The translations under genes were made by a program, and so were the position numbers. Source: Crocinitomicaceae bacterium (GTDB lineage Bacteria; Bacteroidota; Bacteroidia; Flavobacteriales_D; Crocinitomicaceae). From it: 64,000 nucleotides of DNA. Under the pieces are notes generated by a model. The model was not told the DNA's origin. It did no database searches and worked only from the letters and a program-made list of their open reading frames with translations. Shown here one piece after another: positions 4,293 to 10,751 of this stretch. The number at the start of each line of letters is the position of its first letter. Position 1 is the stretch's first letter. The stretch is taken from positions 1 through 64,000 of the forward strand of contig JAURNL010000033.1 of assembly GCA_030830205.1 (NCBI GenBank). The letters run 5' to 3'.

Positions 4293-4706
4293 ATGTCAAA
4301 TAGAGAATTTTTAGAGGTAAGCGCCAGCATAGAAGCGCCGATTGCTCAAATTTGGGAGAAATGGACGCAAGCTGCACATGTCGTCAATTGGAACTTTGCT
4401 CATGAATCTTGGTGTTGCCCGAGTGCAACCGTTGAATTCAACGTAGGAGGGAAGTCAAATTATAGAATGGAGGCCAAAGATGGCAGTATGGGTTTTGATC
4501 TCATTGCTACTTTTGAGAAAATAGTTCCACACCAGCAGATTCACTCTTGCTTAGCAGACGGCAGAAAAGTAGAGGTGAATTTTCAAGAGCAGGATGATTG
4601 TGTGCTCGTTATTCAGCGCTTTGAGCCAGAGCATGAGAATCCACTTGAGCTTCAGCAAGGAGGTTGGCAAGCCATTCTTGATCAATTTAAAAAATATTGC
4701 CAATAA
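4293..4706 (+). CDS. AHSA1/SRPBCC-domain protein
   Basis: 137 residues, a single SRPBCC domain of the Activator-of-Hsp90-ATPase-homologue-1 type. It has the N-terminal 'VSASIEAPIAQIWEKWTQ' strand-helix, the 'HVVNWNFAHESWCCPSA' region, a G-G-x-S-N-Y-R-M-E segment, and the terminal 'GGWQAILDQFKKY' helix. Bacterial members bind hydrophobic ligands or act as uncharacterised cyclase-like proteins; no Hsp90 role is implied. The stop overlaps the next start by one base (TAATG), so the two genes are translationally coupled. Confidence 0.88.
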   Translation: MSNREFLEVSASIEAPIAQIWEKWTQAAHVVNWNFAHESWCCPSATVEFNVGGKSNYRMEAKDGSMGFDLIATFEKIVPHQQIHSCLADGRKVEVNFQEQDDCVLVIQRFEPEHENPLELQQGGWQAILDQFKKYCQ

Positions 4707-5053
4707 TGCATCCCGAAATCGCCGAGCACATACGTCGTTTTCCTGATCACATGCAAGAAAAGTTAGGTGTTTTACATACTTTTTTTGAGCAAAGACTTCC
4801 AAAGGCTACCCAAAAAATAGCTTACGGTATTCCCACATTTCAGCTCAAAGGAAAGAATTTCATTCACTACGCAGGTTACTCCAAACATATAGGTCTGTAT
4901 CCTGGCGCAAAAGCAATCGCCTTTTTTGCTGAGGAATTTGATCGGGCACACTACAAATTTTCCAAAGGAGCAGTTCAGTTTCCAGCCAATCAAGAGCTGC
5001 CTTTTGAGTTGATAGAACAAATCATCACTTATCTACAACAACAAAAAGCATAA
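4706..5053 (+). CDS. DUF1801 (YdhG-like) protein
   Basis: 115 residues from the ATG at 4706. A TTG nine bases upstream in the same frame would overlap the previous gene further and is not favoured. The DUF1801 pattern is present: an amphipathic N-terminal helix, 'KIAYGIPTFQLKGKNFIHYAGYSKHIGLYPG', and a final helix after 'FSKGAVQFP'. This small family is often found with AHSA1/SRPBCC proteins. The biochemical role is unknown. TAATG coupling to the upstream gene indicates one transcript. Confidence 0.87.
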   Translation: MHPEIAEHIRRFPDHMQEKLGVLHTFFEQRLPKATQKIAYGIPTFQLKGKNFIHYAGYSKHIGLYPGAKAIAFFAEEFDRAHYKFSKGAVQFPANQELPFELIEQIITYLQQQKA

Positions 5054-5056
5054 AAA

Positions 5057-5074
5057 AAGCGCCCGAAGGCGCTT
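5057..5074. terminator. Intrinsic terminator, UUCG tetraloop when read on the minus strand
   Basis: Stem AAGCGCC / GGCGCTT with a 4-base loop. On the minus strand it reads AAGCGCC-TTCG-GGCGCTT followed directly by a run of T, a textbook terminator placed 2 nt after the stop of the small gene at 5077-5223. On the plus strand a T-run (5081-5086) follows after a 6-nt gap, so it may also end the DUF1801 transcript. Confidence 0.85.
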
Positions 5075-5076
5075 GA

Positions 5077-5223
5077 TTAATTTTTTCCAATCAATACGAC
5101 CGTCTTTTTTCCTTTGACAACATCTAATGAGCTGCTATACATTTTTAAAAATTGAAGCACATTTGGATGAGGTAAAAGATTGGTGCTAGATGTGGAAGTA
5201 GTTGGGTAAGTATTTTTAATCAT
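5077..5223 (-). CDS. Uncharacterised 48-residue small protein
   Basis: A 49-codon frame (ATG at 5223, TAA at 5077). The protein starts MIKNTYPTTSTSSTNLLP and ends KGKKTVVLIGKN. It has a Ser/Thr-rich N-terminus, a Leu-Pro-His-Pro turn, an amphipathic helix (VLQFLKMYSSSLDVV) and a basic tail. It has no signal peptide or membrane helix, so it is probably cytosolic. Support for reality: the stop lies 2 nt before a UUCG-loop terminator with a T-run in the same orientation; it fills an otherwise empty 274-nt gap; and it is divergent from the aldolase gene. The layout recalls short Bacteroidota proteins with a 'LxPxxxxxxFLxxYSxS' pattern, but that is from memory. Function unknown. Confidence 0.65.
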   Translation of the reverse strand: MIKNTYPTTSTSSTNLLPHPNVLQFLKMYSSSLDVVKGKKTVVLIGKN

Positions 5224-5289
5224 AGGCACAAGAGTATATTTGATAGTATAACGTCAAATACTTAGAAATATTATATCACAGATAATTTC

Positions 5290-5297
5290 TAATTTTG
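5290..5297 (+). promoter_or_regulatory. Putative -7 box for the aldolase/accD operon
   Basis: TAATTTTG, a perfect TAnnTTTG, 30 nt before the ATG at 5328. No good -33 element is visible. Confidence 0.45.
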
Positions 5298-5327: not shown

Positions 5328-6389
5328 ATGATCAAGCCAGGAGTCGCCACAGGCGATGAAGTTCAAGCTATTTTTAAGTTGGCTAAGCAAAAGGGTTTTG
5401 CCTTGCCTGCCGTAAATGTCACGAGTAGTAGTACCGTAAATGCCGTAATGGAGACTGCCGCTAAGCTCAAAGCACCCGTTATCATTCAATTTTCCAATGG
5501 TGGTGGGCAATTTTTTGCAGGAAAAGGCTTGTCTAATGACCTTGAAAAGGCGGCAATTTTAGGATCGATTGCTGGCGCGCGCCACGTACATGCGCTTGCA
5601 GAGGCCTACGGCGCCACCGTTATTCTTCATACAGATCATTGTGCAAAGAAACTGCTACCTTGGATTGATGCTTTGTTGGATGCAGGCGAGGAATTCTTTA
5701 AAGAAACAGGCAAACCACTCTATAGCTCACACATGATTGATCTGAGCGAGGAACCTCTTTCAGAAAACCTTGAAATTTGTGCTAACTACCTCAGACGGAT
5801 GTCAAAAATGGGCATGACACTTGAAATTGAATTAGGAATTACAGGTGGTGAAGAAGATGGGGTCGACAATACAGATGTTGATAATGCCAAATTATATACA
5901 CAACCTGAGGAGGTTGCGACAGCTTATGAGGTGCTATCCGAAATTTCTCCTCGTTTTACCATCGCCGCCTCATTTGGTAACGTTCATGGAGTTTACAAAC
6001 CAGGGAATGTCCAATTGACACCAGAAATTCTAAAAAATTCACAGGCCTATATTCAAGAGAAGTTTCAAACAGAGTCAAACCCCGTAGATTTTGTCTTTCA
6101 TGGTGGTTCGGGTTCAAGCCTTGAAGAAATCAGAACTTCCATTTCTTACGGTGTGGTAAAAATGAATCTGGATACCGATATGCAATTTGCCTTCACTGAG
6201 GGCGTGCGTGATTATATAGAAGCAAATATCGCTTATCTTCGCACCCAAATCGGAAATCCAAACGGTGCCGATGAACCAAATAAAAAATACTACGATCCAC
6301 GTAAATGGTTGCGCGAAGGTGAACTAACTTTTGTACAAAGACTCGAGCAAGCATTTACAGATTTAAATAACATTAATACATTGAACTGA
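5328..6389 (+). CDS. fbaA: Class II fructose-bisphosphate aldolase
   Basis: Zinc-dependent cleavage of fructose-1,6-bisphosphate to DHAP and glyceraldehyde-3-phosphate in glycolysis and gluconeogenesis. At 353 residues it is of the E. coli FbaA (type A) length. The HTDHC motif at 101-105 gives the catalytic Asp103 and Zn ligand His104. A second Zn His is in [11 protein letters not shown] and a third in VFHGGSGSS; both Gly-rich phosphate loops are intact. It is followed after 4 nt by accD, so central carbon flux and malonyl-CoA supply appear to share a transcript. Confidence 0.96.
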
Positions 6390-7280: not shown

Positions 7281-7283
7281 GAT

Positions 7284-10200
7284 ATGAAATACTTATTTTT
7301 TGTCTATTTTCTCTGCTCCGGCCTTGTTCTTTTTGCTCAAGATACCACTTGGGTTCAGACCTTTACTTTTGATTCTATTACCACACGACGTGCTGATTTT
7401 CAATTCCCTGCTTCCTTAGATACGGAGCGTTTTGAAAAAGTGCAGATGTACTACAAGTTGAAGTGTTCACCACTTACGGCTTGGGATCAATACAATTGTG
7501 GAGAATGGGATTACCTCACCTACACTAGAGTATTTGATCACACCGGCCAATTTGATTCTACAGCAATCAATGGGATGCAATTTTTGGCAAACTGTGCTAC
7601 TCCGTCGCAAATCAATTTAAAACCTATCCCTTATACGGAATCAGACGAATGGCTAATGCCAGTGTACACAAGAATGGAATCCGGGCTTGGCCATATTCAA
7701 ATTAATAATGGAACAACTATCTCAACCCATCCCTTTCTCAATTCCAAACAAGGGAGTAGGTATCAGTTTATTCTTACTGCTGCCGAACTCGTAGCAGCTG
7801 GAATTCAAGCGGGTCCAATCAGTTCTATGCAGCTCAATTTAGTCAATGGAGGTGAGCTGATGTGGCCATTAATTAATATGGCCCATACGCAAGAAACTAC
7901 GTTAAATGAATTCATCTCGGCACCTTTTATTGGTGTTTTCAATGCCTCTTGCGCCCCTGGCATGCCGCATGCTGCCTTAGTTCCCGGATGGAATACTTTC
8001 GTTTTTTACCAAGATTTCTTATGGAATGGAACCTCGAACATATTGGTTGAATTCCAACTCAATAACAATGATTTTCCCGCGAGTCAAAACCTTGAATTTT
8101 TGATGGAGTCAACACCAAACCCTATGTCAGTGGCGTACGGGAGTAGAAATGGAACACTCACCACCTCAGGGTCAAATTATGCTATGTCCTCTTTTGTAAA
8201 CGAAGAAATCGGGGGAGCGTTCACCGTCGAATTTTGGGCGAGGGGAGAAGGAAATATGGGTGTCAATACCAATATTATGGAAGCGCTTGATAGTGCAGGA
8301 AGACGCGTGTTCAACATTCATATGCCTTGGAGCAACGACAATATTTATTTTGACGCCGGTGACGAAACTGGATATGACCGAATCAATAAAGTGGCCACTA
8401 GTAATGACATCGGTTCATATACCTGGAACCATTGGGCTTTTGTTAAAGACCAAGCAAGCGGGCAAATGTTTATATACAAAAATGGAACACTTTGGCACAG
8501 CGGTACTAATAAGAACAAAGAGATTGGTTACATACAAAAGCTGGTCATTGGCGCTAGTGGAAATTTTACCAATTTCTGGACTGGGAAAATAGATGAACTC
8601 CGCGTTTTTAAAGCAGCACTGAGTGAAGCAACGATAGCTGCTTACTATCAGCAAAAAGTTGATAACACACACCCTGAGTGGAACAACTTAATGTTTTATC
8701 ACGATTTTGACGATGTGCGTTATGCTTATGATAAAAGTGGAAATGGTCATACGCTCATGCCATCTGAATATGGTATGGTAAACACTGATCCTAATTTTGG
8801 GGTATATGCAGGGTCAGAAATACTCAATCTAAGACCACTACTCAAACTGAGTCAAGATGTGGCACAAGGCATGACAACTACTGTCGTCAATTTACCCATT
8901 CTCAAGGAACCCGTTGTTGTTTTTGAATATGCGCCTTTAAACCGACATTTTGAGTTGACTCAAACGTATTTAGGCGCGCCAGAAGGTGTAGAGGCCGTCT
9001 ATGATTTCAACGGAAATATCATCAGTTCCAATCCAGTACAAACAACACTTTCGCTCAATAACCAGTCTTTGGTGGTTTATAACCCACCATTTGAAATCAT
9101 TCATAATGTCGAAATAGCCCGATACATTACCCCCTATGGCATACAGTTTGACCTGGGTCCTAACGGCTTTACCTGGATTTACGACGTTACGGACTACCAA
9201 CAATACCTTCATGGATTGGTAGATCTCGCGGCCCACAATACCCAAGAACTCATCGACCTTAAATTTGCGTTTATCAAAGGAACCCCTCCCCGCGATCTAG
9301 TTAAACGTGAGCCAATTTGGTCTGAATATAAATCTTACAATTTTGGACAAATGGCCGCTGATGCTGTATTGCAAGCCAAACCTGTTGTTTTGAGTGATAC
9401 TGCTGATATGTTCAAGATCAAGACCCGCATGTCGGGTCATGGACAAGTCGGTAATTATGCTTGCTGTGAATGGGTCAATAATACGCATCAAATTAAGGTG
9501 GATGGAGTCCCGCGTTTCAACTGGAGTATTTGGGATGCCATGGTTTGTGGTGATAATCCAAATATTGGACAAGGTGGTACTTGGCCATATGCTCGAGAAG
9601 GATGGTGCCCCGGAGATATGGTTAAAGAATTTGAATTTGAACTCACACCATACGTTACACCCGGTGACACTGTGGTACTAGATTATGCCATAAATGCTGT
9701 GCCAAGCTCTGATCCTGGACAAGCAGGTGGTAATTACATTGCTGCTTATGACCTTATCTCCTACAAGGCGCCAAATTTTCAAAACGACGCAGCAATTGTA
9801 GATGTTTTGAACCCTAATAATTATGAATATTATTCAAAATGGAATCCGACCTGTCAGCATCCACGAATAGTTCTCCAAAATACAGGTGAACAACCACTTA
9901 CTTCATGTCGAATTTTTTGTTGGCTTGATTACGGTTCAAACTTGGTTTTTGACTGGACTGGGAATTTAGGTTTCTTGGAGCAAACAATTGTTGAAATTCC
10001 AGTAAGCGACATGAACTGGTGGTACGAACAAGATAGCTCTTATACCTTTACCGCATGGGTTGCAGATGTAAATGGAATTATAGGTCCAGACCAATATAAT
10101 CAGAACAGCTTAAAGACGGTTAAATATGATGCGCCTGAGCGCATTGACGGCCCTTTCTTTATTTGGTTGACGACTAATAACAAGGCAAGTGAAAATAGTT

Positions 10201-10751
10201 ACCAATTGCTAGACCACGCGGGTAATATTATTTTTGAGCGCAATAATTTGCAAAACACAACCCAATATAAAGATACATTCGACCTAGCTCCTGGTTGTTA
10301 TTCGATCATTATTGAAGATACCGACCATGATGGCCTGGCTTTCTGGTATTCTGCACAAGTGGAAGGAGAAACATCTGGTCAAATGCGTTTGAGAAAAGTT
10401 GGCGGAAGCTACATTGAATTCTTCCCAGGAGATTTCGGTCATTATCATCGATATGATTTCACTGTTGGCTTTACGTTAGATGCTCCAGAACTCATCCTAG
10501 ATCCAAAAGTGGTTATTTATCCAAATCCGGGTTCAGGACCAGTTACCATTGAAATAGAGGGTGAAATCAACGGGTCGGCAGATCTGTATATTAAAGATCT
10601 CAGTGGAAGAGAATTACATCATGAAAAAATGAATGCAACAGCACAATTTGCGGAGAGTTTTGTAGACTTTAGTGCTTACCCTTGCGGAACGTATCTCATC
10701 GAAGTACAAACGGCAAATGGAAGGTATGTGCAAAAATTTATTCGTCAATAA
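7284..10751 (+). CDS. T9SS-exported peptide-N-glycosidase F-like protein with LamG domain
   Basis: 1155 residues from the ATG at 7284. The frame extends to a TTG at 7251, but the ATG starts an exact signal peptide (MKYLFFVYFLCSGLVLFAQ). An N-terminal beta-sandwich carries 'KLKCSPLTAWDQYNCGEWDY'. A LamG/concanavalin-like domain lies at about 300-465 (EFWARGEG, WNHWAFVKD, GKIDELRVFKAAL). The middle (about 560-830) resembles the jelly-roll pair of PNGase F (ITPYG, WIYDVTDY, MSGHGQ, GWCPGDMVKEFEF). A C-terminal sorting domain begins VVIYPNPGSGPV. PNGase F releases N-glycans from glycoproteins; activity here is inferred and the catalytic acids were not mapped. Cell-surface or secreted. Followed by another T9SS cargo gene after 27 nt. 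Confidence 0.78.
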   Translation: MKYLFFVYFLCSGLVLFAQDTTWVQTFTFDSITTRRADFQFPASLDTERFEKVQMYYKLKCSPLTAWDQYNCGEWDYLTYTRVFDHTGQFDSTAINGMQFLANCATPSQINLKPIPYTESDEWLMPVYTRMESGLGHIQINNGTTISTHPFLNSKQGSRYQFILTAAELVAAGIQAGPISSMQLNLVNGGELMWPLINMAHTQETTLNEFISAPFIGVFNASCAPGMPHAALVPGWNTFVFYQDFLWNGTSNILVEFQLNNNDFPASQNLEFLMESTPNPMSVAYGSRNGTLTTSGSNYAMSSFVNEEIGGAFTVEFWARGEGNMGVNTNIMEALDSAGRRVFNIHMPWSNDNIYFDAGDETGYDRINKVATSNDIGSYTWNHWAFVKDQASGQMFIYKNGTLWHSGTNKNKEIGYIQKLVIGASGNFTNFWTGKIDELRVFKAALSEATIAAYYQQKVDNTHPEWNNLMFYHDFDDVRYAYDKSGNGHTLMPSEYGMVNTDPNFGVYAGSEILNLRPLLKLSQDVAQGMTTTVVNLPILKEPVVVFEYAPLNRHFELTQTYLGAPEGVEAVYDFNGNIISSNPVQTTLSLNNQSLVVYNPPFEIIHNVEIARYITPYGIQFDLGPNGFTWIYDVTDYQQYLHGLVDLAAHNTQELIDLKFAFIKGTPPRDLVKREPIWSEYKSYNFGQMAADAVLQAKPVVLSDTADMFKIKTRMSGHGQVGNYACCEWVNNTHQIKVDGVPRFNWSIWDAMVCGDNPNIGQGGTWPYAREGWCPGDMVKEFEFELTPYVTPGDTVVLDYAINAVPSSDPGQAGGNYIAAYDLISYKAPNFQNDAAIVDVLNPNNYEYYSKWNPTCQHPRIVLQNTGEQPLTSCRIFCWLDYGSNLVFDWTGNLGFLEQTIVEIPVSDMNWWYEQDSSYTFTAWVADVNGIIGPDQYNQNSLKTVKYDAPERIDGPFFIWLTTNNKASENSYQLLDHAGNIIFERNNLQNTTQYKDTFDLAPGCYSIIIEDTDHDGLAFWYSAQVEGETSGQMRLRKVGGSYIEFFPGDFGHYHRYDFTVGFTLDAPELILDPKVVIYPNPGSGPVTIEIEGEINGSADLYIKDLSGRELHHEKMNATAQFAESFVDFSAYPCGTYLIEVQTANGRYVQKFIRQ

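Follow-up and report, generated by a model that had tools for sequence, protein, structure and literature searches.

The minus-strand frame that fills the gap between a DUF1801 gene and a class II fructose-bisphosphate aldolase gene raises the question of whether it is a gene in its own right and, if so, what its short product might do. It lies in a window of 64,000 nucleotides, the whole stretch of DNA that was analysed, and the features around it are collected in Table 1. An earlier note had described it as an uncalled small gene with its own terminator and had given it no function. The frame was located exactly as claimed there, with a gap of 2 nt between its TAA and the stem of a UUCG hairpin that runs into a T-run; the linkage to a sigma factor gene and the promoter common to type IX secretion genes are new here.

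Table 1. Features of the small-gene locus, in window coordinates
Feature	Position	Strand	Basis
48-aa small protein gene, MIKNTYPTTSTSSTNLLPHPNVLQFLKMYSSSLDVVKGKKTVVLIGKN	5077..5223	minus	conserved full-length frame, pN<pS, 195 distinct members
Start context GCCT, immediately 5' of ATG	5224..5227	minus	GCCT in 108/195 and GCGT in 12/195 members
Bipartite ECF-type promoter: ATAATA (5274-5269), 15-nt spacer, CGTT (5253-5250)	5250..5274	minus	26 nt before ATG
Intrinsic terminator, AAGCGCC-TTCG-GGCGCTT then T-run	5052..5074	minus	sequence; hairpin in relatives
DUF1801 protein, converging neighbour	4706..5053	plus	PF08818, E 3e-11
Class II fructose-bisphosphate aldolase, diverging neighbour	5328..6389	plus	PF01116; TIGR01520
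TAATTTTG, probable aldolase promoter, divergent from small gene	5290..5297	plus	match to TAnnTTTG

As read from the open reading frames of the window, the small gene starts with ATG (5223-5221) and stops with TAA (5079-5077), and a GTG at 5229, two codons 5' of the ATG, is also in frame. To judge from the alignments, the conserved start is the ATG with CCT before it rather than this GTG. GCCT or GCGT precedes the ATG in 120 of the 195 members overall and is nearly fixed in those from Flavobacteriales. Initiation in F. johnsoniae benefits from an A at -3 (PMC6847099), and the fact that GCCT/GCGT is kept despite this preference hints at a retained, possibly weak or regulated, translation start.

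Among 60 relatives searched, many genomes from the window's genus yielded full-length homologues free of internal stops, which shows that the frame is conserved and not the terminator alone. Identity to the window protein ranges from 31 to 71%, and six residues are invariant in the aligned genus homologues. The earlier note had also proposed looking for substitutions biased towards synonymous sites, and these were found: mean pS was 0.60 and mean pN 0.19, with pN<pS in 78/78 pairs of the 13 closest members of the small-protein family. The gene therefore withstands the objection, anticipated in the same note, that relatives might lack a conserved frame or share conservation only at the terminator, because frame, C-terminal Asn, synonymous bias and terminator are all kept, as are the start context and the promoter. 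The ORF is well supported as a true protein-coding gene. A chance ORF is ruled out by the synonymous bias and class-wide conservation, and a leader peptide of the aldolase or the DUF1801 protein is ruled out as well, since the gene persists while its neighbours vary between genera.

The terminator stem-loop occupies 5057-5074 in plus-strand numbering, and the T-run (5052-5058) partly overlaps the A-T pairs of the stem. In relatives, too, a hairpin stands at this position behind the small gene, though its sequence differs, and a terminator-like hairpin was detected downstream in 145/194 family members, compared with 2/194 shuffled sequences. A short single-gene transcript with so strong a terminator and a strongly kept GCCT start context could also be a regulatory or dual-function RNA in which the ORF is incidental or secondary. 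The F. psychrophilum transcript Rfp11 offers a model, as it is likewise short, independent, conserved in other species and made from an ECF promoter (motif SM6), and unlike the small gene it has been described as a putative regulatory RNA (PMC9723704). Nevertheless, we regard this as highly improbable for the small gene: the synonymous bias is strong, nearly all members end in Asn, the protein core is kept while the nucleotides diverge, and no Rfam family reached its threshold, the best score being 26 bits at the terminator hairpin against a gathering cut-off of 55.

Altogether 195 distinct members of the family were gathered, 190 of which carry a C-terminal Asn in addition to the core P..x[IL][LK]xYSxS[LIV]. 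The window protein aligns across the whole core, ends in Asn and matches the family profile, which includes it, with an E value of 7.7e-25; other genera of the window's family match with E values up to 1e-13. Profile searches detected a homologue in 160/299 genomes of the order, mostly as a single copy, and a wider profile did so in 219/395 genomes of the class, whereas in a phylum sample of 148 genomes the matches were confined to the same class. These genome counts are lower bounds, because divergent members escape the profile; those ending in ...GRIHLN-stop, for example, are found at the equivalent position, preceded by the same promoter. Searches of Pfam, NCBIfam and PDB gave no match for the small protein apart from a single weak, unrelated Pfam hit, and none of 40 family members contained an anti-sigma Pfam domain. 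On these comparisons, the gene belongs to an unnamed family of small proteins that spans the Bacteroidia. The description of the product as soluble-looking, with a Ser/Thr-rich head, an amphipathic helix and a basic tail, proved a fair one: the AlphaFold model, of modest confidence (mean pLDDT 69.7, pTM 0.33), shows nothing beyond a single helix at residues 20-32, the net charge of the window protein is +5, and no 17-aa segment with hydropathy above 1.6 was found in any of the 195 members.

The small gene of the window is preceded by ATAATA-TTTCTAAGTATTTGA-CGTTA (5274-5249, minus strand). The pattern [AG][ACT]A[AC]TA-N15-CGTT occurs about 20-45 nt before the ATG in 47/47 loci of the window's genus and in 124/147 elsewhere. 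Among 121 non-redundant upstream regions, AATA-N15-CGTT was found 99 times and the N16 spacing 11 times, against a shuffled mean of 0.74. As a sequence element, AATA-N15-CGTT has the shape of an ECF promoter; the TAnnTTTG matched by the probable aldolase promoter is the -7 box of the Bacteroidota primary sigma factor, in the consensus quoted in PMC9723704.

Clustering of the neighbours of about 120 small-gene loci revealed an ECF sigma gene directly upstream and on the same strand in 76. This sigma factor, here called A4, has about 195 aa with sigma-70 regions 2 and 4, is single-copy, was found in 277/299 genomes of the order and scores at about 250-320 bits, compared with less than about 90 bits for the other ECF sigmas of the window genome. 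An unbiased estimate of the linkage came from the 30 best loci picked by sigma score only, which avoids selection on the small gene: a member of the small-protein family lies directly behind the sigma gene in 28 of them. The sigma gene was also beside the small gene in 19 of 20 loci added from other families of the class. The N15 spacing was present downstream of 97 of 130 sigma genes, against 2 after shuffling, and sigma and promoter together, with no protein profile, located 93 ORFs, 91 of which end in Asn. None of the three long sigma frames that were checked is a natural fusion of sigma and small protein.

In the window genome both genes are present and unlinked: the A4 sigma gene lies beside ffh on contig C55 (E 9.8e-78, against 2e-23 for the second-ranked ECF sigma), and the small gene has no A4 gene adjacent. 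Sigma adjacency is therefore no strict defining feature of the small-protein family. Within the window's family, linkage is kept in some genera (e.g. loci L068, L069, L082, L084 and L088) and lost in most, so that the separation looks like a derived state. As to the wider surroundings, uvrA often diverges upstream of the pair (46 loci among L056-L213), with nth, bcp or recA nearby, and in the window's genus uvrB is often close by, a neighbourhood with DNA-repair genes.

Intergenic matches to the strict promoter pattern were found in front of porU (5 genomes), porZ (1), a type IX cargo gene (1) and, in the window genome, porT. Genome-wide, the strict promoter was not enriched, with 38 matches in 40 genomes and about as many in reversed controls. 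A large sigma regulon drawn from the strict pattern is thus ruled out, and the regulon must be small or degenerate. As these counts do not exceed the controls, the case for a regulon is built on the genes preceded by intergenic matches and on targeted analyses of porU and porT. Upstream of porU, in 30 loci picked without regard to the promoter, a spacing of 15 occurred in 21/30 and any other spacing in at most 3; upstream of porT the figures were 8/27 and at most 2. The porU controls gave 0/30 for reversed sequences and 38/512 for unrelated background genes, a background that includes some of the small genes' own promoters. The element also precedes the sigma gene itself in 28/130 cases, which agrees with the autoregulation reported for sigP in P. 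gingivalis (PMC7712824). The small gene together with a regulon sharing the AATA-N15-CGTT promoter is well supported.

The window itself encodes, at 7281-10748 on the plus strand, a protein of 1156 aa that carries a type IX sorting tail (TIGR04183, E 4.9e-14), so the genome uses type IX secretion. Its PorU is split over contig ends (G000:C108 and G000:C76). Another clean promoter match in this genome (L246, G000:C33:4220) stands before a secreted 281-aa protein without a family match, which is a candidate for an additional member of the type IX regulon.

The por genes of P. gingivalis are driven by SigP (PGN_0274), an ECF sigma factor, together with PorX (PMC4800418, PMC8265659). We consider the A4 sigma to be very probably the SigP of this PorXY-SigP pathway, because of the shared promoter and regulon, an indirect line of argument; A4 itself would be the sigma factor that reads AATA-N15-CGTT. 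A CGT-type -10 and a CAATA-type -35 are common to the small gene and to the promoters of porU, porT and some of the sigma genes, as in the PorXY-SigP regulon and in SM6 of F. psychrophilum, an ECF motif whose -10 region contains a CGT box and which covers PorU, GldN and Rfp11 (PMC9723704). The P. gingivalis porT promoter, transcribed by the sigmaP holoenzyme, carries TACAATAT ahead of the in vitro start site (PMC8265659), which is half of the AATA-N15-CGTT element. Against the match, the reported porT start there lies 29 nt past site II, and a CGTT at the same spacing would sit nearer to -16 than to -10. The small protein is no listed component of the PorXY-SigP regulon, and in our data it is the most consistent carrier of the element across the class.

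The reading that we favour, with a probability of roughly 0.6, is that the gene encodes a class-wide cytosolic protein, ancestrally located behind a SigP-type ECF sigma gene and expressed from a promoter shared with type IX secretion genes, which serves as a feedback partner of the sigma factor or of PorX. A sigma gene followed by the small gene under what appears to be the sigma factor's own promoter, which sometimes also precedes the sigma gene, amounts to a feedback-loop arrangement. A short single-gene mRNA would be made from the ECF-type promoter and end at its own terminator, so that the small protein would be produced whenever the sigma factor is active. Its conserved helix (P..xxILNYSKSL) and its basic C-terminal tail with the final Asn would provide the binding surface, and the bound protein might then restrain or tune the sigma factor, acting on it or on its co-activator PorX as an anti-sigma or adaptor. 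From its position behind an ECF sigma gene and the promoter signature of type IX secretion genes, the small gene is probably a missing piece of type IX secretion control. The narrower proposal, that the family is a dedicated anti-sigma or adaptor of SigP and thereby the missing negative-feedback arm of PorXY-SigP control of secretion and gliding, is put forward tentatively, at somewhat less than even odds.

In P. gingivalis, ECF sigmas other than SigP have candidate anti-sigma genes listed, but SigP has none (PMC7712824). Classical ECF anti-sigmas, i.e. the zinc anti-sigma/ASD and FecR types, share with the small gene the location directly downstream of an ECF sigma gene, the same type of promoter and a candidate role in negative feedback. 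In contrast to them, the small protein has 48-70 aa, is soluble with one helix, and has no ASD, zinc motif or membrane segment; its gene has a promoter of its own between the sigma gene and itself, and there is no Pfam/NCBIfam match.

In the main rival reading, the SigP-type regulon includes the small protein as one of its outputs: the protein would serve the type IX machinery as a cytosolic accessory (working, for instance, with the PorL/GldL motor or PorX), and its gene would adjoin the sigma gene by ancestry only. The promoter common to the small gene, porU and porT would agree with this, as would the behaviour of the hypothetical gene PGN_0273 in P. gingivalis, which like the small gene adjoins a sigma gene and moves with sigP and the por genes: in a ppGpp-less mutant it was up 4.22-fold, with sigP up 2.75-fold and por genes up too (PMC6994654), and it ranks among the top-induced genes along with porT (PMC5329018). 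However, the conserved place of the small gene is behind the sigma gene and beside no por gene, and the gene is kept in genomes without PorU, although its C-terminal part is absent in one such family, f52. We therefore rate an accessory role as unlikely. PGN_0273, likened to the small gene by position and co-expression only, and Rfp11 are leads towards counterparts in well-studied species.

Both the sigma gene and the small gene are kept in family f52 and in genomes G675 and G691, all of which are PorU-negative, and restriction of the small-protein family to genomes with type IX secretion is thereby ruled out. The module is accordingly not about type IX secretion only, and its role may be wider. 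Either the sigma factor also serves functions other than type IX secretion, or the module outlasts the machinery when that is lost. A sigma factor that is near universal and retained without PorU could, moreover, be a general Bacteroidota ECF sigma other than SigP, regulated by the small protein, with a similar promoter at porU and porT that several ECF sigmas read; the authors of the F. psychrophilum study suggested as much for SM6 (PMC9723704). Against this, the small gene, porU, porT and some of the sigma genes have identical boxes at identical spacing, and a single SigP homologue is reported in F. johnsoniae (PMC10951265); we hold such a general sigma factor to be quite improbable and a SigP-type sigma with the small protein as its feedback partner to be the better account.

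Among the cargo of type IX secretion are gliding adhesins, degradative enzymes and, in some species, virulence factors. PorXY and SigP are already known to control this secretion system, and a SigP anti-sigma candidate is absent from the literature cited here. With an unnamed protein encoded behind a SigP-type sigma gene and under the promoter of type IX secretion genes, the switching-off of the pathway becomes a question that can be approached through one gene. Ordinary as an observation, the locus is important as a gene: it encodes a small, deeply conserved protein with ties to a sigma factor and a type IX promoter. AATA-N15-CGTT provides a transferable signature for finding the regulon across Bacteroidia, and the family may account for genes called 'hypothetical' or transcripts called 'regulatory RNA' in well-studied species.

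The PorU-negative genomes also show two variants of the module. In f52 (L319 and L320), the small proteins stop right after the helix (ILNYSKSLRNL and ILDYSKSLR), without the basic tail and the terminal Asn. G675 and G691 have a second copy of the small gene nearby, so that two copies flank the sigma gene (L334 and L328, respectively), and the copy directly behind the sigma gene carries the promoter.
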